64,000 bases of DNA from positions 129,934 through 193,933 of the forward strand of contig JAAHGL010000007.1 of NCBI GenBank assembly GCA_010692635.1, given 5' to 3'. Position numbers and translations under genes: made by a program. This document shows, in pieces, positions 35,923-50,382 of the stretch. The first letter of the stretch is position 1. The number at the start of each line of letters is the position of its first letter. The notes beneath the pieces are model-generated. The model made no database searches and was not told where the DNA came from. It saw nothing but the letters and a program-made list of their open reading frames with translations. This DNA comes from Symploca sp. SIO2C1 (GTDB lineage: Bacteria > Cyanobacteriota > Cyanobacteriia > Cyanobacteriales > Coleofasciculaceae).

Positions 35923-38900
35923 CTAAGCTGCATATGCGATTTGGCAGCTATCGGAGAGTTCCCCTCTCTTCAATAAGTAAGCAAAGTAGGTTTGGAGCAA
36001 GCTAGTATCAACTGCTGGACAAACGGTGTTAGTTCCCGCTATTCCTGCTAAGGTGTTTTGGTAGTCAAATGCCTGAGATACTAAAGCAGCTGTCTCTAGA
36101 TAAGGTCGTTCGTTGCCAGTTACCCAGTCTGTAAACAGAAACAGCAGGGGACTGAGGGCATTATCTGCTTGAGCGCTAGCCACTTTGAGTAGTTTAGCTT
36201 GCCACTGATCATAGTCACTCCACTGAATAAAGTAGCCAAAGTCATGGATTGATTTCACCAGCTCACGGAAGTGTAAGGCGTGAGGACTAACTAGGTGAAA
36301 AGCTTTGCCTAAGGATGTTGGCTGTTGAGATAAATGAACGATCGCGCGGCTAACATAGTCTACAGGAGTTAGACTTAGTTTTAAGTCTAAGTCAGGGGCG
36401 CTACCTAGTTGAATCAAGCCTTTGATTAAGCGGGCGATTAGGTCATCTACTGAAGAAGCACCAGTTTGACTATCACCTGTAATCATACTAGGTCTGTAGA
36501 TAGAACCAGGAATACCCCTAGCATGAGCTGCCATCACTAACTGTTCACCTACCCATTTACTCTGAGCGTAGCCATCGGAAAGTCCTTCACACTCAAGGTT
36601 GATATCTTCTGAAATTACTTCCATGCCAGCATATTGGGGAGATTGGAAGACATCAAGGGTAGAGATGAAATGAACGGGTTTGACTTTGATTTGGCTGGCT
36701 AATTTCAGAATTTCCTTCGTTCCCAGCACATTAGCTGTCCGGAGGGCAGTATAGGGATAGATTAAATTAACAAATGCCCCGTTGTGATAAATAGTGTCAA
36801 TCTCTGTAGCTAACTGGCGAAACTGCTCCTCTGAAAACCCGAACAGAGGCTGAGTTAAATCGCCGCGAACTGGTACAATCCGATGCTCTAGATTTTCATC
36901 AGAAAGTAAATAGCGCTTTAGATTGCTGCGGAGCTTTTGTTTGCCTATCTCAAGATTGGGACAACGGACTAAGCAATGAATCGTAGCTTCGGTTTGTTGG
37001 AGAAGTTCGTGTAGTAAAAAAGCTCCCAGAAAACCAGTTGCTCCTGTTAAGAAGATCTGTTGAGGCTGAGTCCCAGAGTTAGTATAGGGTACTTCTGGAT
37101 AGATAGTTGGTTCGAGAACTGCATCCGCCTGTAACTTCTCAACTATGGTGCTGGCTGGCTGTGAGCTAAATTGGGAATTTTGAACTACTGTAATTTCCTG
37201 AGCCAGTTCAGCAATTGTGGGAGCTTCAAACAAAGACAGCAATGGTAATTCTACCCGGAAGATTTCTCTTATCTGAGATAGTAGCTGAGCAGTGAGGAGA
37301 GAATGTCCCCCCAATTCAAAGAAGTTGTCATGAATACCCACTCGGTTAATCTCCAGAACCTCGCTCCAGATTTGGACTAACTCTTCTTCAATGGGAGTCC
37401 GGGGAGGCACAAACTGGTCCATTAAAACTAGCTTGGCTTGGTTTGGTGCTGGTAGTGCTTTGCGGTCTACTTTGAGGTTAGGCGTTAATGGGAATGAATC
37501 TAGTAAGATGAAAGCTGAAGGTATCATGTACTCAGGTAGTGTCTTCTTGAGAAAGGAGCGCAAGTGGCTCAAAGATAATCCTTGGGTTTCGATGATGTAA
37601 TCTATGCTCTGAGAAATTTGAGCTACTCGGGGTTGTGCAGCATCGAATACTAGCCCAGCAGATTCTCCAAAGTGCCAAACGACAGTTCCCCTTAACCAAA
37701 GCTCGTCTTGAATTCCAGGTAGTTGTAGCTTGAGGCGAAGGCGTTGGCCCTCTTGCCAAAGATCTGTAGTCTTCGTTTCGCTTTGCTCACCATGTTTAGA
37801 TGCTGTTAAGCGGATACCACCACGACTGATATTTTGCGTAGTCACCTCTAGGGTTTGACCTGACTTAAATTTTGCTAGGCAAGTGCTGTTAAAAGGTATC
37901 CGAGGCTCTGTACGACGTATATCCTTTACTGCTAATCCCTCGGTTTGCAAGATCTGCTTGATGCCTTGATTCAATAGAGCTTGCTTTATGGGTGTGGTTT
38001 GGAAGAGAACTCCAGCATGTTCCTGCTCTCGCCAAGCGAGGGTTCCTTCTAACTTTAGTTCTTGCTCAAGTCCGGGCAACTGGAGGTGGAGGTGGAGGTG
38101 TTGTCCTTGCTGCCAGACTGCTGGTATATCCGTTAGACAGATGCCAGTTGGGGAAAGATCTACAGTAGTTACCGTAACTGCAGGTCCACCGTCCCATTCT
38201 ACTAGGCAACTACTTTGTAGCTGTACTCGTTCTACACTGAGGTCGGTCAATAAATAGGCTACTAGACGCTTTTCTCCAAGATCTTCCTCTACTGGCACTA
38301 CCACTGCCTCTTTGATACCAGGGTGTTGGTAGAGAGCAGATTCAATTTCCCCCAGCTCAATGCGAAAGCCACGAATTTTCACCTGATGGTCGATGCGGCC
38401 TAGGCATTCTATCGTACCGTCTGGTAAGTAACGTGCTAAGTCTCCGGTACGATAGAGACGAGCTCCAGGCTTGTTGCTGAAAGGGTCTGGAATAAACTTT
38501 TTTTCAGTAAGTTCAGGTCGATTGAGGTAACCCCGAGCCAATCCTACTCCACCAATGAGTAACTCCCCTGGCTCTCCTAATGGGACTAACTGAAGCTGCT
38601 CATCTTTCTGGTTTCGTTCTGTATCTACTAGATAGATTTGGGTATTAGCAATCGGTCTGCCAATGGGAACATTACTATTCTGTAGCTCTACTTGCTGTAC
38701 TGTTGACCAAACAGTGGTTTCAGTAGGGCCGTACATGTTCCAAACTGAGCTACTTCTAGCAAGAAGTTGATTAGCTAGCTCTCTAGACATAGCTTCCCCA
38801 CCACAGAGAATTTTGAGGTTAGGAGAACCTTGCCAAGCTGCGGCTAAGAGCATTCGCCAAGTGGCGGGTGTTGCTTGCATGACGGTTGCACCGGATTGCT

Positions 38901-39657
38901 CTATGACTTTGATTAACTCGATGGCGTCTGAGGCAACTTCCCGTGTCACCAACTCCACACGAGCTCCGACGAGCATTGGTAAGTAGAGCTCTAAGCCAGC
39001 AATATCAAAGGAGATGGTGGTAACAGCCAGTAAGACATCTTCTGGGATAAGTCCAGGTGCTTGGCTCATGGATGTGAGGAAATTAACCAGTGCTCGATGG
39101 GTAATTTGCACACCTTTGGGCTTACCTGTAGAGCCAGAAGTATAGATGATATAAGCCAAGTTGTCTGGAGTGACTCTACTGTCAGGATTCTGTTGGCTGT
39201 ATTGAGCAATTGTTTCCCAATCAGTATCCAGACATACAACTTTAGCTTGATGGTCGGGTAACTTCGCTACCTGTTCACTATCACTCAAAAGCACTCTACA
39301 TTGGCAATCTTCGATCATGAAAGCCAAGCGATCTTGAGGGTAGCTAGGATCTAGAGGCACATAGGCTCCACCGGCTTTGAGAATCCCCAGCAATCCAATT
39401 ACCATGTCTAGCGATCGCTTCAAGGAAATTCCCACTAGTGCATCCGGTCCAACTCCCAATGTCTGCAAATAGCGAGCCATTTGATTTGCTCTATTATTAA
39501 GTTCTCTGTAAGTAAGGGAGCTGTTCTCAAAACTAACGGCCACGCTGTCGGGAGTGCGTTCTACTTGAAAGTCAACTAACTGATGCATGCACTGATTTGG
39601 ATAATCAGCTTGAGTGTTATTCCAGTTTCCAAGTAGTTTGTGATCGATCAAATTCAT
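35923..39657 (-). CDS. NRPS-like synthetase: adenylation domain interrupted by two PilZ domains, carrier, thioester reductase
   Basis: A 1244-residue multidomain enzyme. The adenylation core runs from residue 1 to 470 (A3 YTSGSTGKPKG at 172-182, A5 NMYGPTET, A7 YRTGDL, A8 to 440), and its C-terminal lobe resumes at about 695 with catalytic Lys729 (TPNLKVDRKAL). Between them lie two PilZ domains: 474-572 (DLSPTG at 500-505, but R477-x3-Q481) and 580-690 (R582-x3-R586 and N609-I-S-R-G-G614, the full cyclic-di-GMP motif). A carrier domain follows (LGGHSLL, Ser786), then a reductase (TGATGFLG at 871; Tyr1030-x3-Lys1034). The pocket residues read D-I-L-Q-C-G-M-V-W-K, close to glycine-type codes, so an amino acid, perhaps glycine, is loaded and released as aldehyde or alcohol. 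There is no condensation domain. Confidence 0.93.
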   Translation of the reverse strand: MNLIDHKLLGNWNNTQADYPNQCMHQLVDFQVERTPDSVAVSFENSSLTYRELNNRANQMARYLQTLGVGPDALVGISLKRSLDMVIGLLGILKAGGAYVPLDPSYPQDRLAFMIEDCQCRVLLSDSEQVAKLPDHQAKVVCLDTDWETIAQYSQQNPDSRVTPDNLAYIIYTSGSTGKPKGVQITHRALVNFLTSMSQAPGLIPEDVLLAVTTISFDIAGLELYLPMLVGARVELVTREVASDAIELIKVIEQSGATVMQATPATWRMLLAAAWQGSPNLKILCGGEAMSRELANQLLARSSSVWNMYGPTETTVWSTVQQVELQNSNVPIGRPIANTQIYLVDTERNQKDEQLQLVPLGEPGELLIGGVGLARGYLNRPELTEKKFIPDPFSNKPGARLYRTGDLARYLPDGTIECLGRIDHQVKIRGFRIELGEIESALYQHPGIKEAVVVPVEEDLGEKRLVAYLLTDLSVERVQLQSSCLVEWDGGPAVTVTTVDLSPTGICLTDIPAVWQQGQHLHLHLQLPGLEQELKLEGTLAWREQEHAGVLFQTTPIKQALLNQGIKQILQTEGLAVKDIRRTEPRIPFNSTCLAKFKSGQTLEVTTQNISRGGIRLTASKHGEQSETKTTDLWQEGQRLRLKLQLPGIQDELWLRGTVVWHFGESAGLVFDAAQPRVAQISQSIDYIIETQGLSLSHLRSFLKKTLPEYMIPSAFILLDSFPLTPNLKVDRKALPAPNQAKLVLMDQFVPPRTPIEEELVQIWSEVLEINRVGIHDNFFELGGHSLLTAQLLSQIREIFRVELPLLSLFEAPTIAELAQEITVVQNSQFSSQPASTIVEKLQADAVLEPTIYPEVPYTNSGTQPQQIFLTGATGFLGAFLLHELLQQTEATIHCLVRCPNLEIGKQKLRSNLKRYLLSDENLEHRIVPVRGDLTQPLFGFSEEQFRQLATEIDTIYHNGAFVNLIYPYTALRTANVLGTKEILKLASQIKVKPVHFISTLDVFQSPQYAGMEVISEDINLECEGLSDGYAQSKWVGEQLVMAAHARGIPGSIYRPSMITGDSQTGASSVDDLIARLIKGLIQLGSAPDLDLKLSLTPVDYVSRAIVHLSQQPTSLGKAFHLVSPHALHFRELVKSIHDFGYFIQWSDYDQWQAKLLKVASAQADNALSPLLFLFTDWVTGNERPYLETAALVSQAFDYQNTLAGIAGTNTVCPAVDTSLLQTYFAYLLKRGELSDSCQIAYAA

Positions 39658-40836: not shown

Positions 40837-42729
40837 CTAAGAAAACAGTTGCCAAATCTTAATTGTCCGGTCATCACTGCCGCTAACCAAGAAGTAGCCA
40901 TCGGGACTAAAGGCAACAGAGCGAATAGAATTAGAATGACCAGAAAGAGTGCGTAGTCGTTTGCCTGTGTGCCAATGCCACAACTCAATGCTCTTGTCAC
41001 TGCCACTGGCCAAAGTCTGAGCATCGGCACTAAAGGCAACAGAGGTAATACGATTAAACTTGGTGGAAAAAGCATGCAGTCGTTTACCGAGATGTGGCTC
41101 CCACAGCTCAATAGTCTTGCCACTGCTAGTGGCTAAGGTTCGACTATCTGCACTAAAGGCAATAGAGGTAATGCCACCGGAGCGATTAGAATTACTACGT
41201 AGTCGTTCCCCAGTGTTAAGATTCCAAAGTTCTAAGCTACCGTCCAGGCTGCCAATAATGCAAGTCTGACCATCTGGACTAAAAGTAGCAATTCGAGCGG
41301 AGATTGAACGTCCAGTCAAAGGACGTAGCAGTTGGCTTGTACCCACAACCCAGAGTTTGACTTCTGAATCACTGGTGCTAATTAGGGTCTGACCATCGGG
41401 ACTAAAGGCAATATATCGAACTTTTCCTGAGTTTCTGGGGAAGGTATGTAGCAGTTCTCCTGAGGAAAGATCCCAAAGCTTGATAGTCCTGTCGTAACTA
41501 CTGCTGGCTAGAAACTTACCATCTGGGCTGATGGCAATGGAAGTAACTCGATTAGTATGACCAGAGAGAGTACCTAGCAGTTTCCCAGAAGGCAACTCCC
41601 ATAGCCTAATAGTTTTATCGTAACTACCACTAACCATAGTCTGACCGTCCGGAGTGATGGCAACTGCCTTAACAGTATTTTTATGTCCAGACAGGGTACG
41701 ACGCAGTTGAACTTTTTGCCAGGAACTGGTTGACGGTTCGCTGGGGAGGAAGCTAGCTACAAAACTGGAAGCCTTAACTAGGAAAGAATTTTCTTTTTGG
41801 GTAATGATAGGATTACCGGAGGGAGTAACTGATGCAGGTACTCCGATAGTCTTCCCATTGGGAGTATCAGTAGGTACAGGTAATGGGGTGATGATGTCCT
41901 TGAGGCAGCGCCTAATCATCTGTGGCGTCTGGGGTCGTCCACCGGGAAAGGTAGCCATTAAATAATCAATCAAACCAGCAAACTCCGTCGAAACCTGAGA
42001 AGCACTGTCTCGCCAATACAATTTACCTGTTCGGAAGTCTTTCTCAAAATTAGTAGGATGTTGACCCGTCAACAAATAGACTAGGGTACGTCCAAGAGCA
42101 AAGAAATCAGATTGGGGTACAGATTGACCTTCAGCCTGCTCCGGTGGCGTATAGCCTACGGAAATAATCACTGTACCCGTCACATTCTTGGCTTGCTTCT
42201 GCAAGTAGGTATCTGTAATTTCCCGAACCGCACCAAAGTCAATCAAGACTAATTGTCCATTGGGCCTAAGTAAGATATTAGATGGCTTAATATCCCGGTG
42301 AATCAACTCTTGCTGATGGAGTTGAGCTAAGATCTCTGAGAGTTGTTCCAACCACACGATCGCTTGTTCTTGAGTAATCGGTTGATTGTCCCGATTCTTC
42401 ATCCATTTCTTTAAATTGATGCCATCGATTTTCTCCATCACTAAGCAGTACAGTATTTCACCACTGTCGTCAGCCAAGGTAAAATATCCATCTGGTTCAA
42501 CTCTAGGAATACCAGGATGATTTAACCGACTTAAGACTGCTCCCTCTCGCTGGAATAGAGATACTGCCTTTTGTTGAGTTTCTGAAGAGTAGAAACGATC
42601 TAGATTGAGAACTTTTAAAACCTTGGGGATACCGCCATCATCCACCTCAAAGGTTTGACCAAATCCCCCTTTCCCTAGTGGTTCCAGAACTCGATAGCGG
42701 TTTTGTACTAATAAACCTGGATGAATCAT
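40837..42729 (-). CDS. Ser/Thr protein kinase with C-terminal WD40 propeller
   Basis: A 630-residue Hanks-type kinase. The Gly-loop is LGKGGFGQTFEV, the catalytic loop HRDIKPSNILL, and the DFG segment DFGAVRE; the kinase domain ends near 275. After a Pro/Thr linker (280-345) come seven WD40 repeats (from LSGHKNTVKAVAITPDG to DDRTIKIWQLFS), enough for one propeller as a substrate- or partner-docking module. Its ATG overlaps the ancestral stop of the NB-ARC gene (see 42757), so it was probably the second gene of a coupled operon. Confidence 0.93.
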   Translation of the reverse strand: MIHPGLLVQNRYRVLEPLGKGGFGQTFEVDDGGIPKVLKVLNLDRFYSSETQQKAVSLFQREGAVLSRLNHPGIPRVEPDGYFTLADDSGEILYCLVMEKIDGINLKKWMKNRDNQPITQEQAIVWLEQLSEILAQLHQQELIHRDIKPSNILLRPNGQLVLIDFGAVREITDTYLQKQAKNVTGTVIISVGYTPPEQAEGQSVPQSDFFALGRTLVYLLTGQHPTNFEKDFRTGKLYWRDSASQVSTEFAGLIDYLMATFPGGRPQTPQMIRRCLKDIITPLPVPTDTPNGKTIGVPASVTPSGNPIITQKENSFLVKASSFVASFLPSEPSTSSWQKVQLRRTLSGHKNTVKAVAITPDGQTMVSGSYDKTIRLWELPSGKLLGTLSGHTNRVTSIAISPDGKFLASSSYDRTIKLWDLSSGELLHTFPRNSGKVRYIAFSPDGQTLISTSDSEVKLWVVGTSQLLRPLTGRSISARIATFSPDGQTCIIGSLDGSLELWNLNTGERLRSNSNRSGGITSIAFSADSRTLATSSGKTIELWEPHLGKRLHAFSTKFNRITSVAFSADAQTLASGSDKSIELWHWHTGKRLRTLSGHSNSIRSVAFSPDGYFLVSGSDDRTIKIWQLFS

Positions 42730-42756
42730 CGCTGCTGCAATTTACCCCCGATCACC

Positions 42757-42879
42757 GGGTGAGCGAAATTAGGGAAGGAATTTCTAGCGAAGTATCCTTT
42801 CAAATTATTAGTTCTCCTTTGTTTCCTCATCTCCCCATCTCCCTATCTCCCTATCTCCCCACCCTTTTTTCGTTCACCC
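42757..42879. mobile_element. Miniature element copy D, inserted between the NB-ARC and kinase genes
   Basis: The ends GGGTGAGCGAAATTAGG and CCCTTTTTTCGTTCACCC are inverted, and exact 9-bp direct repeats CCGATCACC flank it (42748-42756 and 42880-42888). The interior has the same order as copy B: a GTATCC segment, an ATTATTAGTTCTC segment and a CTCCCTAT-type pyrimidine tract. Its right end now codes for the last residues and the stop of the NB-ARC protein. Confidence 0.94.
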
Positions 42880-44489
42880 CCGATCACCTCTAGTAAATTG
42901 AGAATATTGGTTTGGGCATATCCTACTGCTTGTGGGGAGTGCCGTTGTAGCATTGATAGAACCTGATTTAGCTGCTCTTCAAGAGGATTTGCCTCGGTTA
43001 AGGTCAGATATAATTTATCTACAATCCGTGTCAGAATCAGGCGAACTTGAATTTGTTTTACCTCTTTTGTTGTCTGTTCCTTAACCAATGCATGAGTTCT
43101 TAGGAGTCCCAATTTACTGACTGACTGAGTTGCCACTGTTGTCATTATATCTTTACAGACCTGCTCAATCAATTGGTTAATAACATACTTCATCACCACC
43201 GGTTGTAGGGTAAAAATAGCCTCATTCCCTTCTCGGTTTGATGCTTTTTCCAGTAGCGAGCGTCGCTTCAGAGATTCAAGAGCTGCTACTAATTTAGATA
43301 ACGATGATACAGAAAACTGCATATCTGCTTTCAATTGAAGCAATGATATGGGTTGATTTTCCAGAGCAAACCAATAGACAATTCCCATTTCTAAGGTTGA
43401 CAATCGTTCAAAATGCTGATTTAACAGGCTCAGAAGAATATCACCAATGACTAAGGTACTTTGCTCTAGTAATTCATAAATATCGCCATTAAATATCTCC
43501 TGAATCGTGGTAGCAATTATTTTTAAAGCTAAGGGATTACCTCTATATAGCTGAATCAGTTCTTCAGAACCCCTCTTTAAATTAGAGAAACCTTTAGTTT
43601 CCAAGAGTTTTTTGGCATCTTCGAGTTGTAATCCCTTAAGTTTTAACTCCCTAACCGGTAAAGTGGCTCCTGCCAAAGACGAAATTTCTATCGGTTTCTC
43701 GCGACTGATGAGAAGTAAACAACTTTGATGCCTTTCTTGTCCTACTCGCCTAATTAACTTGCCATAATCTTCATAACCTTCTCGATATTGCCCTGCTAGT
43801 TCTCCGCTGCGCATTACTGTTTCCCAATCATCCAGTATCAGGAAACAGCGATGTACTTGTAAATACTCAATTAGTCGCGAAATTCTACCATCTACAGTTG
43901 TTGGTACATCTGTCTTCTGCCCATTGGCTAAAAATTTGAGCCAATCTGCTAAGATATCTTGAATCGGTGGGGCGTTGCGTAGAGAACGCCAGATTAGGTA
44001 CTCAAAAGATTGTTGAATTTGCTCTGCAAGCTTAGCTGAGAGTGCTGTTTTACCAATTCCACCCATGCCTAGCAGTGCTACTAAGTGACAAGACTCAACC
44101 ACAATCCATTGCTCTAGCTGAATTAGTTCTGTGGTACGACCATAAAAGGTAGAGATATCAATCGCTTCTCCCCAGTCTTGACAAGTCTTAGTGGGCGTTA
44201 GGCTGCGGCGCTCAACAACCTCTTCCCACTTTAGTCCGAGAACTTGACAGTAGGCTTTGAAGGCTGCTGCACTAATAGGTTGCTTTCCTGCCAAAAACCG
44301 TTTCCAAGTTCCTCCTGAGATACCCTCAGCATAAGAACCATCTAGAAACCAGTTTTTGTTAGGCTCTAAAACCTTACTAGCCTCCACGAGGCAGGTGTCA
44401 TCTTCATCAATACTCCAACCCCACCCCTTTTCATTTCTAGCTTGCTTAATTTTGGCTATTCCCAGTCGAGAGGCTTTAAGCGTCGGCAC
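42843..44489 (-). CDS. NB-ARC (STAND-type) ATPase
   Basis: A 548-residue STAND NTPase. The N-terminal 95 residues form a helical, HTH-like module common in cyanobacterial NB-ARC proteins (WKRFLAGKQPISAAAFKAYCQ). The NB-ARC core begins at FYGRTTELIQLEQW with Walker A GMGGIGKTAL, Walker B CFLILDDWE, the RNBS-like LLISREKP and GLPL-like GNPLALKII. A helical ARC/winged-helix part follows. The usual sensor repeats are absent. The C-terminus is ERKKGGEIGR from the inserted element; without it the gene would end KLQQR and overlap the kinase start (ATGA). That kinase carries the WD40 propeller often fused to such ATPases. The start codon could be downstream. Confidence 0.88.
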   Translation of the reverse strand: MPTLKASRLGIAKIKQARNEKGWGWSIDEDDTCLVEASKVLEPNKNWFLDGSYAEGISGGTWKRFLAGKQPISAAAFKAYCQVLGLKWEEVVERRSLTPTKTCQDWGEAIDISTFYGRTTELIQLEQWIVVESCHLVALLGMGGIGKTALSAKLAEQIQQSFEYLIWRSLRNAPPIQDILADWLKFLANGQKTDVPTTVDGRISRLIEYLQVHRCFLILDDWETVMRSGELAGQYREGYEDYGKLIRRVGQERHQSCLLLISREKPIEISSLAGATLPVRELKLKGLQLEDAKKLLETKGFSNLKRGSEELIQLYRGNPLALKIIATTIQEIFNGDIYELLEQSTLVIGDILLSLLNQHFERLSTLEMGIVYWFALENQPISLLQLKADMQFSVSSLSKLVAALESLKRRSLLEKASNREGNEAIFTLQPVVMKYVINQLIEQVCKDIMTTVATQSVSKLGLLRTHALVKEQTTKEVKQIQVRLILTRIVDKLYLTLTEANPLEEQLNQVLSMLQRHSPQAVGYAQTNILNLLEVIGGERKKGGEIGR

Positions 44490-44622
44490 TTGTGCACCCT
44501 ATTTTTCCGATTGTCAAGATCAATTTTAGATCGGTTCTGCTGGTTTCAAGATCAGCATTTTAGTGCAGAAGCTTTGACATCAATGATATCGTTGATGTCA
44601 ATGAGTGCAGAAGGAAGTGCCT

Positions 44623-44868
44623 ATGGCCAGCATTACTATTCGTGATATACCTGATGCTACTAAAGAAGCGCTACGTATTCAGGCTGCACAATCGGGCTTG
44701 TCCCTTGAGGCATATTTGCGCCATGTGCTCAAACAGTTATCATGCAAAGAGACTACAGCAAATATTAATATCTTGGACATAGCGCAACAATGTTTCGGTA
44801 CAAAACACGGTATTGACCTTGAATTACCGGAACGTCATTCAAGACGTTCATCTGTTACGTTTGATTGA
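44623..44868 (+). CDS. FitA-like antitoxin (ribbon-helix-helix)
   Basis: An 81-residue protein starting MASITIRDIPDATKEALRIQ, the standard RHH DNA-binding N-terminus of FitA/VapB antitoxins, followed by a flexible tail (LPERHSRRSSVTFD) expected to bind the toxin. An upstream frame to 44605 adds six residues. It overlaps the PIN-domain toxin gene by one base (TGATG). It would repress its own operon together with the toxin. Confidence 0.93.
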   Translation: MASITIRDIPDATKEALRIQAAQSGLSLEAYLRHVLKQLSCKETTANINILDIAQQCFGTKHGIDLELPERHSRRSSVTFD

Positions 44869-45293
44869 TGATTATTTTGGATACGAATGTGATCTCTGAA
44901 CTGATGCGTGAAGCACCAAATCAAGCAGTAGCTGAGTGGATCGCCTCTCATAAATCTTTTCATCTGGCATTGACGACTATTTCTATTGCTGAAATTCAGC
45001 GTGGCTTGGCGCGGTTACCCAAAGGTAAGCGACGTACTGAACTTGAAAGCAACTTCTCAAGCTTTATCAAACAGGCATTTAGTGGCCGCATCTATACTTT
45101 TGATGAAGATGCAGCATATACTTATGGCAACGTATCCATGCAACGAGAAACGATAGGCTTACATGCTGATGCAGTCGATATGATGATTGCGGCGATTGCT
45201 ACATCGCAAAATGCATCTATAGCAACACGCAACGTTAAGGACTTTGAAGAGTGCGGGGTTCATATTATCAATCCATGGGATTATGTATCCTAA
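44868..45293 (+). CDS. FitB/VapC-like PIN-domain toxin
   Basis: A 141-residue PIN ribonuclease. Acidic residues are in LDTNVISELMRE (Asp and Glu), TISIAEIQRGLARLP (Glu), and ADAVDMMIAAIATSQNASIATRNVKDFE (two Asp). The last block is the FitB/VapC signature. It would cleave tRNA or other RNA when freed from the FitA-like antitoxin. All catalytic acids are present, so the system looks intact. Confidence 0.94.
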   Translation: MIILDTNVISELMREAPNQAVAEWIASHKSFHLALTTISIAEIQRGLARLPKGKRRTELESNFSSFIKQAFSGRIYTFDEDAAYTYGNVSMQRETIGLHADAVDMMIAAIATSQNASIATRNVKDFEECGVHIINPWDYVS

Positions 45294-45454
45294 ATTATCA
45301 ATGGACGATTGATAATTGATTAATTTGGTCTAAGACCTCTTCAGCCAGGGGTGAGAATTTTCGCTAGATTAGATTTGGTACAGAAGCAATACAGCCTTAC
45401 TTTTCCTCGTCTCAAAAGCTTGCCTTATCTTCTCTCATAATTGGTAACCTCCCT

Positions 45455-46462
45455 ATGAAAGACTTGAATCTTGACCTAGTGACAGACTTGAATCTTGACC
45501 CAGTGACAGGCGTTATCAAAGCGATCGCTCGCATAGCAGCTTCCCCGATTAAAAACCAGCTTGAGCGTGATAAGAGGGTAATTCAAGTGCTCAAGAAACT
45601 GAAGCTCAATCCTGAGCATCCACCAGCAGATTTCACTGGGGTTTATCGCTATGCCCTTGCAGAGTATGGTGTTGACAAACCACAGCCAGTTCTAGAACTC
45701 TTTGAGCAAAAAGCAATAATGCAGGCGTTTCGGCAAGCCTTTGAGCAGAATGACCAATCAATTCTTTTGCAGGAAGGAGAGGATTTTCTCGACTGGAATA
45801 TATTAGGTGATCGCATCCGAGAAGTTAAGATTGATATTCAGCGAGAGTTTGCTGATTTTCAAGCAGTCTTTATTAAGGTGGCAAACTCTACGCGGACACC
45901 TGCTGATGTTATTCAAAGCCAGAAAATAGATCACTTAGCAAAGATTTTAGAAGAGATTGAGGCTAGGATACCAGCACTACCACCACTTACCCTTGACCAC
46001 CTCTGGGAGTTATTGCTTGACAAAGCGACTAAAACTGACCAAATGAAACCAGAAATTGCCAATAATTTGGGCATGTGGAATCCTGCACCCAAAGTACCAA
46101 AAGGCACACCATTTTATTTCGTGGTTAATCTTGAGACTTCCGGTTATTTGATTCTGCTGGAAAAGAACCCTGAAAGACAAATTTGGTGTTTATCACCATC
46201 ATTTTTAGCACCACCGTCATTTCTGGAAGCAGGACAAGTGAAGTTACCCTTGGCAGATCAAGATACTTTTACCGCCGATAGTGTTGGTAGAGAGCAGATG
46301 GTGGCGATTATTAGTCACGAGCAGCTTAATTTCGATTGGTTGCCGGGGAGTGATGATGAACCTTTGGAAATGCGGAAGGTGCATTTAAATCAATTATTAG
46401 AATATTGTAAAAAATTCCCAGACAGCAAAATATTATCTTCGGAATATACAGTGATTTTCTAA
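45455..46462 (+). CDS. NACHT-associated N-domain protein with DUF4384-like C-terminal domain
   Basis: A 335-residue protein. Residues 15-165 (KLNPEHPPADFTGVYRYALAEYG ... FLDWNILGD ... ANSTRTPADV) match an all-helical module that I know from the N-termini of cyanobacterial NACHT NTPases, here without the NTPase. The C-terminal 125 residues (FYFVVNLETSGYLILLEK ... REQMVAIISHEQL) are a DUF4384-like beta domain. The first 16 residues contain a duplicated DLNLD-VTG unit from a 24-bp direct repeat. It precedes the TPR-CHAT gene by 44 bp on the same strand, so it is likely an adaptor or sensor for that protease-like protein. Confidence 0.65.
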   Translation: MKDLNLDLVTDLNLDPVTGVIKAIARIAASPIKNQLERDKRVIQVLKKLKLNPEHPPADFTGVYRYALAEYGVDKPQPVLELFEQKAIMQAFRQAFEQNDQSILLQEGEDFLDWNILGDRIREVKIDIQREFADFQAVFIKVANSTRTPADVIQSQKIDHLAKILEEIEARIPALPPLTLDHLWELLLDKATKTDQMKPEIANNLGMWNPAPKVPKGTPFYFVVNLETSGYLILLEKNPERQIWCLSPSFLAPPSFLEAGQVKLPLADQDTFTADSVGREQMVAIISHEQLNFDWLPGSDDEPLEMRKVHLNQLLEYCKKFPDSKILSSEYTVIF

Positions 46463-46506
46463 AATTCAAGGTGATTTGCTACCATTTGTAATTCCAGTTA
46501 AGAGAT

Positions 46507-49500
46507 ATGACAACGTCTATTTGGTTATTAATACTAATTACTTCTATTTTGTTGATCTCTTTTGTTCTTTACAAGAAAATAGAGCATTTTATGCGACTAC
46601 GTAAGCTTGCTCAGCTCAATCAAATAGTTACTCAACTATATCAGCGTGGTGATTCTGAACAAGTCCTAATGATAGCAGAGAAATCCTTGGAATTAAGTAA
46701 AAAACTGCAAAAAAGAGATTACTATGATACAGCCAATAGCTTTAACAATCTCGCGATAATATACTCTGACAAAAGGCGCTATTCAGAAGCAGAAATTTTA
46801 TATTTAGAAGCTTTAGCAATATGGAGACGTTTGTTGGGAGACAATCATATTAATATAGTACAAACTTTAAATAATTTGGCATACATATATGAAAAGCAAG
46901 GTCGCTATAAGGAATCAGAAACTTTGTATGTAGAAGCTTTGGATATTCGGGAAAGCTTGCTAGGTTCTGAGCACCTTGATGTAGCACTGAGTTTAAATAA
47001 TTTGGGAGGAATTTACACGTCTCAAGGTCGCTATAAGGAAGCAGAGCCTTTGTATGTAAAAGCTTTGGATATTCGGGAAAGCTTGCTAGGTTCTGAGCAC
47101 CTTGATGTAGCACTGAGTTTAAATAATTTGGGAGGAATTTACACGTCTCAAGGTCGCTATAAGGAAGCAGAGCCTTTGTATGTAAAAGCTTTGGATATTC
47201 GGGAAAGCTTGCTAGGTTCTGAGCATCTTGATGTAGCATCTAGCTTTAATAACCTAGCATTTCTACACTACTCTCAAGGACATTACTTGGAATCTGAAGC
47301 ATTGTACCTGAAAGCCTTAGATATGCGAAAGCGATTATTAAAAACTGAGGAGCACCCTGATATAGCAACTAGTCTGAATAATCTAGGAGCACTTTACGAA
47401 GATCAGGGTCGTTACTTAGAAGCAGAACAAAAGTATCTCAAAGCTTTAGCAATGCGACAGCACTTTCTAGGCAAACAACATCCTTATGTAGCAACTACTT
47501 TAAACAACCTGGCAGAACTTTACAAAGATCAAGGACGCTTCGTAGATGCAGAACGAAAATATCTAGAAGCTTTGGCGATATTACAGCATCTCCTAGGTAA
47601 CCAACATCCCTATGTAGCAACTACTTTAAACAACCTGGCAGAACTTTACAAAGATCAAGGACGCTTTGTAGATGCAGAACAAAAGCATCTGGAAGCTTTA
47701 TCAATGGAACAACGTTTGTTTGGAGATGAACATCCTAGTGTGGCACGCAGTCTGAAAAATTTGGCAACACTTTATGTCTCTCAAGGGCGTTATTCAGAAG
47801 CAGAACAAAAATATCTAGAAGCTTTATCAATGCGACAACGTTTACTAGGCAATGAACATCCTAGTATAGCAACTAACTTAGACAGTTTGGCAATACTTTA
47901 TGTTTCTCAAGGGCGTTATTCAGAAGCAGAACAAAAATATCTAGAAGCTTTATCAATGCGACAACGTTTACTAGGCAATGAACATCCTAGTATAGCAACT
48001 AGCTTGAATAATATAGCAACACTTTATGCTTCTCAAAGGCGTTACTCAGAAGCAGAACAAAAGTCTATCGAAGCTTTGTCAATGCGACAACGTTTACTAG
48101 GCAATGAACATCCTAGTATAGCAACTAGCTTGAATAATATAGCAACACTTTATGCTTCTCAAAGGCGTTACTCAGAAGCAGAACAAAAGTCTATCGAAGC
48201 TTTGTCAATGCAACAAAATTTGCTAGGCAATGAGCATCCTGATGTGGCAGTTAGTTTAAATAATTTAGCAGCAATCTACGCCAATCAAGGACGTTACTTA
48301 GAAGCAGAAGAAAGATATTCAAAAGCTTTATCAATGCGACAAAACTTGCTAGGCAATGAGCATCCTAGTCTAGTAACCAGCTTAAATAATCTAGCGGCTG
48401 TGTTTGCTACTACTGGTTGCTCTACTAAATCTCTATCAAACATGCTCCAAGCAAATAAGATAGATGATCAGATAATAAATGATATCTTTGCCTTTAGTTC
48501 AGAAGGTGATCGCCTTGCCTATCTAAAAACAATCAGAGGTAATTTTCATGCTTTTCTTTCCCTAGTCTGCAAGTGTTTTTCTAACTCTCCTCAAGCAGTG
48601 CAAAAGGCACTAGATGTAATTTTAAAACGTAAAGTCCTTACTGCATCAGCACTTGCTGTCCAAAATGAAGTTCTCTACAGCGATCGCTATCCCCATCTTA
48701 CCGAAGACTTCCACAAACTCCGCGACTTAAGCGAACAAATAATCTACCTCACCTTTTCCATCCCACAAACTACAGATTTCACTACTTACCAGCAACAATT
48801 AGCACAACTACAAGCCGAACATAACAACTTGCAAAAAAATCTGGCGTCTCAAGTGCCAGAAATCCAATTACAAGAACAACTTCCTAACCGTAGCGATATC
48901 GCATCAAAGTTGCCAGCAGGTTCAATATTGGTCGAGTTTGTTCGCTTTGATGTCTTCAATTTCAAAGCAATCCCAGCCAAAGGAGAAGCACAATGGCAAC
49001 CTGCCCGCTATCTTGCCTTTATCTTACCCGCAGGACAGCCAGAATCAGTAGAGATGATCGATATTGGGGAAGCAGAATATATTGATAGCTTAATTCGAGA
49101 ATTTAGAGGGTTGGTATCTGGAACAGGTACAAATCCAGAAAATCAGCTAGGAATGTTCAACAAACGGAATTCTAAATTAATTTTTAGAGAATATCATCCC
49201 CAAGCAGGTAGCAAACTAGGGCAAGCGATATTTGACAAACTTCGCCCCTATATCCAAGAACACCAACATTTAATTATTGCCCCAGATGGAGAATTGAACC
49301 TAGTCCCATTTCAAATTCTCCCTAGCGACGACAGTGGAAAGAAAATGCTGATGGATGAATTTACCATCAGTTATTTAACTGTCGGACGAGACATCCTGCG
49401 GCAGAAAGTAGAGACAAAACGCACTGCATCCCTAAAAGCTTTAGTATTGGCTTCTCCGAATTTTGACTTGAATGCAGAAACCGTTACCCCTCAGGCATCA

Positions 49501-50382
49501 CCAGAGCAACAAAATATGCACTCAGCCAATTTGCGAGAATCTATTGCTAGCAATCCTTTAAAACCTGCTACAGGAACGGGCATACTAGGAGAACGAATCG
49601 CACAGAAGTTAAATGTAGCACCCTATTTGGAAGATCAAGCACTAGAAAACTACTTCAATCCCAGACAATGTCCCCGCATTTTATTAGTTGCTACTCATGG
49701 TTTATTTTTACCCAACCAGCCAGAAGATCCTACTCCCACCCCGATTTATCATAGAGAAAGTGATTTACTCCAACGCGATCGCATTTCTCGTCGAGTAGAA
49801 AATCCCATGTTGCGATCGGCACTTGCCTTAGCTGGAGCTAACACCTGGGCAAAAGGCGGTAAACTACCCCCAGAAGCGGGAAAAGGCATCCTCTTTGCTC
49901 AAGATGTAGCTGGACTCGACCTTTGGGCGAATGAAATCACTGTCCTCTCCGCCTGCGAAACTGGAATAGGAGATATCGCCATTGGGGAAGGAGTATTTGG
50001 TTTAAGGCGAGCTTTTGCTGTTGCAGGAGCAAAAACCCTGATCATGAGCTTATGGTCAGTTAATGGGTGGACAACTACCTTACTAATGGAACGCTTTTTT
50101 GATAATTGTGAAGCAGGATTAGGCCGTACTATGGCATTACAAGAAGCTCAGAATTACCTGCGAAATATAACTGTTAGAGAATTGCAGCAATTTGAACTAG
50201 GGCAAGACATCCTCAAATACGAATTTAATAACGGTAGAAAATTAGATGCAGCAATTTTGGCTCGTCAAGCTGAAGATAAACCTCTGGCACATCCTAAATA
50301 CTGGGGTGCGTGGATTTGTCAAGGGGAGACAAAAGCTGTAGAAATATTCAAGCTTGATGAAGTTGAGTGGCAAGATTTTTAG
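46507..50382 (+). CDS. TPR-CHAT caspase-like protein
   Basis: A 1291-residue protein. A signal-anchor helix (IWLLILITSILLISFVLY, residues 5-22) is followed by about fourteen 42-residue Kinesin-light-chain-type TPRs (residues 65-660), a helical linker, and a CHAT domain (about 950-1285) of caspase/separase fold. The catalytic His1064 lies in LLVATHGLF and Cys1150 in VLSACETGIG; both are intact. CHAT proteins act as regulated proteases in cell-death and defence circuits. TPR units include near-identical neighbours at 46960-47220 and 47780-48200, showing recent duplication in units of 126 bp. The upstream gene is likely co-transcribed. Confidence 0.93.
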   Translation: MTTSIWLLILITSILLISFVLYKKIEHFMRLRKLAQLNQIVTQLYQRGDSEQVLMIAEKSLELSKKLQKRDYYDTANSFNNLAIIYSDKRRYSEAEILYLEALAIWRRLLGDNHINIVQTLNNLAYIYEKQGRYKESETLYVEALDIRESLLGSEHLDVALSLNNLGGIYTSQGRYKEAEPLYVKALDIRESLLGSEHLDVALSLNNLGGIYTSQGRYKEAEPLYVKALDIRESLLGSEHLDVASSFNNLAFLHYSQGHYLESEALYLKALDMRKRLLKTEEHPDIATSLNNLGALYEDQGRYLEAEQKYLKALAMRQHFLGKQHPYVATTLNNLAELYKDQGRFVDAERKYLEALAILQHLLGNQHPYVATTLNNLAELYKDQGRFVDAEQKHLEALSMEQRLFGDEHPSVARSLKNLATLYVSQGRYSEAEQKYLEALSMRQRLLGNEHPSIATNLDSLAILYVSQGRYSEAEQKYLEALSMRQRLLGNEHPSIATSLNNIATLYASQRRYSEAEQKSIEALSMRQRLLGNEHPSIATSLNNIATLYASQRRYSEAEQKSIEALSMQQNLLGNEHPDVAVSLNNLAAIYANQGRYLEAEERYSKALSMRQNLLGNEHPSLVTSLNNLAAVFATTGCSTKSLSNMLQANKIDDQIINDIFAFSSEGDRLAYLKTIRGNFHAFLSLVCKCFSNSPQAVQKALDVILKRKVLTASALAVQNEVLYSDRYPHLTEDFHKLRDLSEQIIYLTFSIPQTTDFTTYQQQLAQLQAEHNNLQKNLASQVPEIQLQEQLPNRSDIASKLPAGSILVEFVRFDVFNFKAIPAKGEAQWQPARYLAFILPAGQPESVEMIDIGEAEYIDSLIREFRGLVSGTGTNPENQLGMFNKRNSKLIFREYHPQAGSKLGQAIFDKLRPYIQEHQHLIIAPDGELNLVPFQILPSDDSGKKMLMDEFTISYLTVGRDILRQKVETKRTASLKALVLASPNFDLNAETVTPQASPEQQNMHSANLRESIASNPLKPATGTGILGERIAQKLNVAPYLEDQALENYFNPRQCPRILLVATHGLFLPNQPEDPTPTPIYHRESDLLQRDRISRRVENPMLRSALALAGANTWAKGGKLPPEAGKGILFAQDVAGLDLWANEITVLSACETGIGDIAIGEGVFGLRRAFAVAGAKTLIMSLWSVNGWTTTLLMERFFDNCEAGLGRTMALQEAQNYLRNITVRELQQFELGQDILKYEFNNGRKLDAAILARQAEDKPLAHPKYWGAWICQGETKAVEIFKLDEVEWQDF

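Follow-up and report, generated by a model that had tools for sequence, protein, structure and literature searches.

Domain organization of the NRPS-like gene

The reverse strand of the analyzed window, a 64,000-nucleotide stretch of the Symploca sp. SIO2C1 genome, carries a single unbroken open reading frame at 35923-39657 that encodes an A-PilZ-PilZ-A'-T-R protein of 1,244 amino acids resembling a nonribosomal peptide synthetase (NRPS). An adenylation (A) core is followed by half of the Asub lobe, two PilZ domains (PilZ1 and PilZ2), the remainder of Asub, a carrier (T) domain and a thioester reductase (R) domain; all of these features, recognized by domain matches, lie on the same strand. 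The A core (residues ~25-436, 38350-39585) was identified by Pfam AMP-binding (residues 31-378, E 1.3e-93), by TIGR01733 and by its specificity code, D-I-L-Q-L-G-M-V-W-K. The first part of Asub with the A8 motif (residues 437-471, 38245-38349) was delimited by the Pfam AMP-binding_C match, which is restricted to 437-471, and by the structural model, and the second part with A9 and A10 (residues ~693-740, 37438-37581) by alignment and the model. Motifs A3, A5, A7, A8 and A10 (K729) are legible in the protein sequence. The T domain (residues ~757-823, 37189-37389; Pfam PP-binding at 759-821) contains LGGHSLL, and the R domain (residues ~867-1232, 35962-37059; Pfam NAD_binding_4 at 870-1106; TIGR01746, 351 bits against a cut-off of 213) contains TGATGFLG and YAQSK. 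Both the amino-acid adenylation and the thioester-reductase subfamilies of NCBIfam scored above cut-off. Because it combines an A, a T and a thioester reductase domain in a single chain and has no C domain, the protein is an A-T-R module.

The initial annotation had described two PilZ domains between A8 and the A10 lysine in one continuous frame, and both the Pfam matches and the position of K729 in the alignment agree with that description. AMP-binding_C is broken at residue 471, A9/A10 follow at ~696-735 and K729 is retained, as in an A domain interrupted at the A8/A9 site. Pfam PilZ matched in two stretches (E=2e-22, 79.9 bits against a curated cut-off of 22.5), so that the PilZ assignment passed the profile check proposed for it, and PilZ1 and PilZ2 each exceeded the PF07238 cut-off when scored singly. 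PilZ1 (residues ~472-575, 37933-38244) was placed by the second Pfam stretch, alignments and a model pLDDT near 90, and PilZ2 with its C-terminal helix (residues ~578-692, 37582-37926) by Pfam PilZ at 581-676 and by fold matches. Membership of the insert in PF07238 is supported by both the profile score and a six-stranded barrel in the model.

No methyltransferase, reductase or oxidase profile matched the insert, which had PilZ matches only; a tailoring enzyme was thus ruled out, profile and fold matches giving only PilZ and the codes of the host A domains being varied. A chance PilZ match was ruled out by the presence of the insert in relatives from other genera and at the same site of other NRPSs, and an assembly artefact by its presence in near-complete genomes (G007, 9 contigs; G391, 4 contigs). 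With the insert as phmmer query, PDB sequences yielded no PilZ match, a tblastn search of plasmids found no match, and a search of genome contigs with the whole protein was dominated by ordinary A domains.

Genes at 40837-50382, next to the NRPS gene, encode a Ser/Thr kinase with WD40 repeats and NB-ARC, NNH5/DUF4384 and TPR-CHAT proteins, and look like STAND/CHAT signalling or defence genes as judged from their predicted domains.

PilZ motifs and predicted structure

PilZ is a fold that senses c-di-GMP in other proteins. Sequence and alignment indicated that PilZ2 reads R582-T-E-P-R586 (37900-37914) and N609-I-S-R-G-G614 (37816-37833), the complete RxxxR and [D/N]xSxxG signature of c-di-GMP receptors that the initial annotation had assigned to it. 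PilZ1, which lacks the complete signature, had been credited with DxSxxG and with Gln in place of the second Arg; D500xSxxG505 is indeed present, but the alignments put the loss at the first Arg (Leu or a gap), with R477 as the second Arg of RxxxR. Canonical c-di-GMP binding by PilZ2 is likely, as far as these motifs indicate.

An AlphaFold2 model of the A domain with its insert (40 rows; mean pLDDT 86.4, pTM 0.71) bore out the expectation of two PilZ folds at the A8/A9 loop. Past the Asub strand at 462-471 the chain forms a six-stranded barrel and a helix, and it repeats this arrangement once before it reaches the A9 helix at 696-704. Averaged over blocks, pLDDT came close to 90 in PilZ1 and ranged from about 48 to 84 in PilZ2 with its linker. 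Fold matches of the whole model were A domains, including the methyltransferase-interrupted A domain 5wmm. When PilZ2 was modelled alone from four rows, the best model had a pLDDT of 74.7 and the other four were near 50; the top of its list of PDB fold matches consisted of PilZ structures (BcsA, CesA PilZ, Alg44, MapZ, YcgR and VCA0042), and many of the PDB matches contain c-di-GMP.

Orthologues and probable loss of the PilZ domains in a congener

Among genomes of the window's own family, G002, G004, G006 and G007 have a gene with two PilZ domains and G010 and G011 one with three, whereas the gene of the congener G001 has no PilZ domain. The three-PilZ orthologue of G011 (L022:10922-15114) is split over two frames near an ambiguous base at a repeat, which may reflect misassembly or a true frameshift.

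The G001 linker, VER-IPQSMDYLIETQGLSL, has 27 residues, whereas 26 uninterrupted A domains have linkers of 11-15; the extra residues correspond to the C-terminal helix of PilZ2, the end of which remains, and an ancestral empty site was therefore ruled out. Alignment of the DNA indicated an in-frame deletion of about 0.6 kb relative to the insert-bearing gene, and a short similarity, TAGA-C, can be read from it at both break sites. Because of the long linker, the leftover helix end and the in-frame deletion, the PilZ domains of G001 were most likely lost secondarily. For the A core and R domain of G001, pairwise comparison with G000 and G002 gave an NG86 dN/dS of about 0.11-0.14, as expected under purifying selection. 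Retention of the enzyme in G001 after the in-frame deletion means that the two PilZ domains are dispensable for keeping it.

Where present, PilZ1 and PilZ2 also show purifying selection, with NG86 dN/dS values between orthologues of about 0.1-0.4. In the orthologue alignment G002 and G004 read RHxEPR, so that the closest insert-bearing orthologue, G002, has His where the first motif Arg is expected, and G006 and G007 read NIGRGG; the strict motif is therefore not fixed even between orthologues.

PilZ-interrupted A domains in other cyanobacterial NRPSs

Genomes were searched with the window insert and then with single inserts as queries, and PilZ domains in NRPS-sized frames were counted. Such frames were found in 9 of the 390 genomes of the class sample and in 49 of 391 genomes (32 of 150 genera) of the order sample. 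Seven members of the order sample come from the family of the window genome, and two have the stand-alone form only. The mapping of the insertion site across genomes that had been suggested at the outset placed the insert at the same A8/A9 site in the relatives and in other NRPSs; in most loci read, GEIE (A8) precedes the insert and LPxYMxP follows it. The PilZ-bearing NRPS-sized frames contained 58 PilZ sites (two of them stand-alone) and 81 A cores. Inserts consist of one PilZ domain or of a tandem of two or three at the same loop, and the interrupted A domains occur in first, internal and last modules of proteins, some of which end in R or TE. Their codes are of many amino-acid types, which we take to be Gly, Val, Phe, Thr, Ser, Cys, Ala, Asn and others. 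Outside Cyanobacteria, 193 sampled genomes of the Corallococcus phylum had no NRPS-sized frame that matched the same profile, and 249 of the Bradyrhizobium phylum had no match at all; beyond these samples the insertion may still occur there.

Alignment of 48 rows of single inserts showed the second Arg in 47, Asp in 45, Ser in 47, Gly in 46 and the first Arg in none, and the first copies of the tandems had an identical motif pattern. Canonical c-di-GMP binding by the single-insert class is doubtful, because the first Arg of RxxxR is missing. The distal tandem copies (12 rows, with the G004 row disturbed by a 20-residue insertion) have the first Arg in 10, the second Arg in 11, Asn/Asp in 12, Ser in 10 and Gly in 12. 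First and distal copies fell in separate groups in the trees; the tandem copies lay beside the singles in the tree without an outgroup, and the distal copies lay nearer the root, on long branches, when free PilZ domains were the outgroup.

Some NRPSs (L191:6652-14148, reverse strand; L196:2943-10457, forward strand; also in G453 and G052) carry a second, repeated Asub-PilZ block behind a partial T domain. These blocks are without an A core of their own, and the PilZ pairs are about 0.7 kb apart. By their predicted domain order, modules of this type consist of an A domain and then a spare PilZ-bearing lobe.

In two species (G042 and G437), a protein of 355-359 amino acids consists of two Asub parts around a tandem PilZ, without an A core (L188:3388-4452, reverse strand; L189:3354-4430, forward strand). 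Its A10 Lys is replaced by Arg, and Pfam matches PilZ only. In both species the gene adjoins genes for a sensor histidine kinase and a response regulator, as named by sequence, and a module retained after catalysis was lost would fit a signalling role.

Substrate, gene neighbourhood and host signalling

The adenylation code of the window A domain, DILQLGMVWK, is presumably Gly-type; a literature search for a Gly code string found no match. Homologues of a gene for an ethanolamine-permease-like APC transporter (L023:7053-8546, L024:4810-6321, L025:13032-14495, L022:15800-17263 and L027:342-1817) are located close to the A-T-R gene in G001, G002, G004, G007 and G011, and the permease of G001 scored 364 bits with the ethanolamine permease model TIGR00908, just below the cut-off of 381.75. 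In the window genome the permease lies on a different contig from the A-T-R gene. Because of the Gly-type code and the frequent permease neighbour, the enzyme may load glycine or a close relative and reduce it to an amino aldehyde or amino alcohol. The window genome encodes 9 GGDEF domains and has three further PilZ places.

Possible function of the PilZ inserts

For the tandem class, tuning by c-di-GMP is the best single explanation, with a ligand-independent scaffold a close second. From the sequences and models we infer ligand binding, its effect on catalysis, the substrate and the product as follows. In the tandem class, c-di-GMP is most likely bound by the distal PilZ; the ligand would make the PilZ arm on the Asub lobe stiffer or change its orientation, and this would tune, without acting as an absolute gate, the adenylation of a small amino acid (Gly-type code) and its conversion to a thioester, from which the R domain would then release it by reduction. 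For the class as a whole, we tentatively read the PilZ domains, single or tandem, as an accessory signal-sensing module in the mobile lobe, with tuning of the enzyme through c-di-GMP bound by the distal PilZ of the tandems, and regard this reading as somewhat short of probable. It is favoured by the location of the insert in the mobile lobe, by the PilZ family score and fold, by the near-invariant DxSxxG and second Arg of the singles and the RxxxR and [N/D]xSxxG of most distal copies, by purifying selection on both PilZ domains, by the GGDEF domains that supply c-di-GMP synthesis and by the two-species association of the stand-alone gene with the kinase and response regulator. Occurrence at the same site in dozens of NRPSs with different codes is more easily reconciled with a general control element than with a substrate-specific enzyme. 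The missing first Arg of the single class, the motif variants among orthologues, the PilZ-free enzyme of G001 and the derivation of the PilZ2 model from four rows weigh against tuning. Gating of amino-acid activation in the tandem class by c-di-GMP that locks or releases lobe rotation, as the initial annotation proposed, is plausible, but a strict form of it is opposed by the loss of both PilZ domains from the otherwise kept enzyme of G001, by the singles and G002, which are without the first motif Arg, and by known catalytic inserts at a8/a9, with which an A domain can still work (PMC8949500). The broadest formulation, in which c-di-GMP acts as a direct allosteric regulator of NRPSs in cyanobacteria by way of PilZ domains in the rotating lobe, with the tandem and stand-alone forms as sensor variants, is possible but rather doubtful.

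Alternatively, the PilZ barrels might be a ligand-independent scaffold or docking surface for T, R, C or a partner, the motif residues serving the fold or an interface. The absence of the first Arg from all 48 rows of the singles, the commonest form, despite the conserved remainder, together with motif variation between orthologues and the occurrence of PilZ in A domains for many substrates and at various module positions, makes this a real possibility, if well below probable; a pure scaffold would not need the signature kept by most distal copies, and the signalling neighbourhood of the stand-alone derivative also speaks against it. Several PilZ receptors are generally known to place proteins, and here too c-di-GMP binding could bring the enzyme to the membrane or to a partner protein with catalysis unaltered, as might suit the stand-alone protein without a catalytic core, but a site within the catalytic lobe is odd for a mere tether, so that we consider placement improbable. 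Slightly less likely still is a functionless passenger, carried by A-domain recombination in a loop that tolerates inserts: the permissive site, the differing specificities of the host A domains and the in-frame loss in G001 would suit it, but purifying selection, the nearly invariant surface motif, the conserved stand-alone derivative and persistence over many families of the order do not.

NRPS assembly lines are generally regarded as controlled at transcription. If tuning by c-di-GMP is true, a PilZ domain in an A domain would make NRPS activity switchable by a second messenger, and the A8/A9 site would offer a naturally used position for building ligand control into A domains. Cyanobacterial c-di-GMP has been linked to light-dependent aggregation and phototaxis (PMC5871770, PMC9090330).

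Comparison with known systems

The initial annotation knew of no described NRPS with an inserted c-di-GMP receptor, and our search of the open literature for PilZ with NRPS or adenylation likewise found no description. The available part of a c-di-GMP receptor table (PMC10519070) names no NRPS, and in Microcystis PilZ is reported solely in CelA or alone (PMC7063779). PilZ-interrupted NRPS A domains are apparently an undescribed class, which suggests that a common architecture has been overlooked in a heavily mined group of producers, although it may already be visible in the domain listings of databases.

The single C-less module with a terminal thioester reductase resembles the L-aminoadipate reductase type and the terminal module of MxcG, with NCBIfam matches that fall short of the equivalog cut-offs; the window protein is set apart by its presumed Gly-type code, one R domain and PilZ insert. 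As in the cellulose synthase BcsA and in Alg44, whose PilZ domains are among the best fold matches of PilZ2, PilZ is fused to an enzyme, but in those proteins it lies outside any adenylation domain and control by c-di-GMP is established, whereas here it is putative. In position the insert resembles those of interrupted A domains such as A-M-A of TioS (PDB 5wmm), in which the insert also lies between A8 and A9/A10 of Asub in an otherwise complete A domain. Inserts in A domains include methyltransferases, monooxygenases, oxidases and reductases, generally at a8/a9 (PMC8949500). In those systems the inserts are catalytic tailoring domains, whereas the inserts described here are one to three PilZ domains, members of a receptor family without known catalysis.
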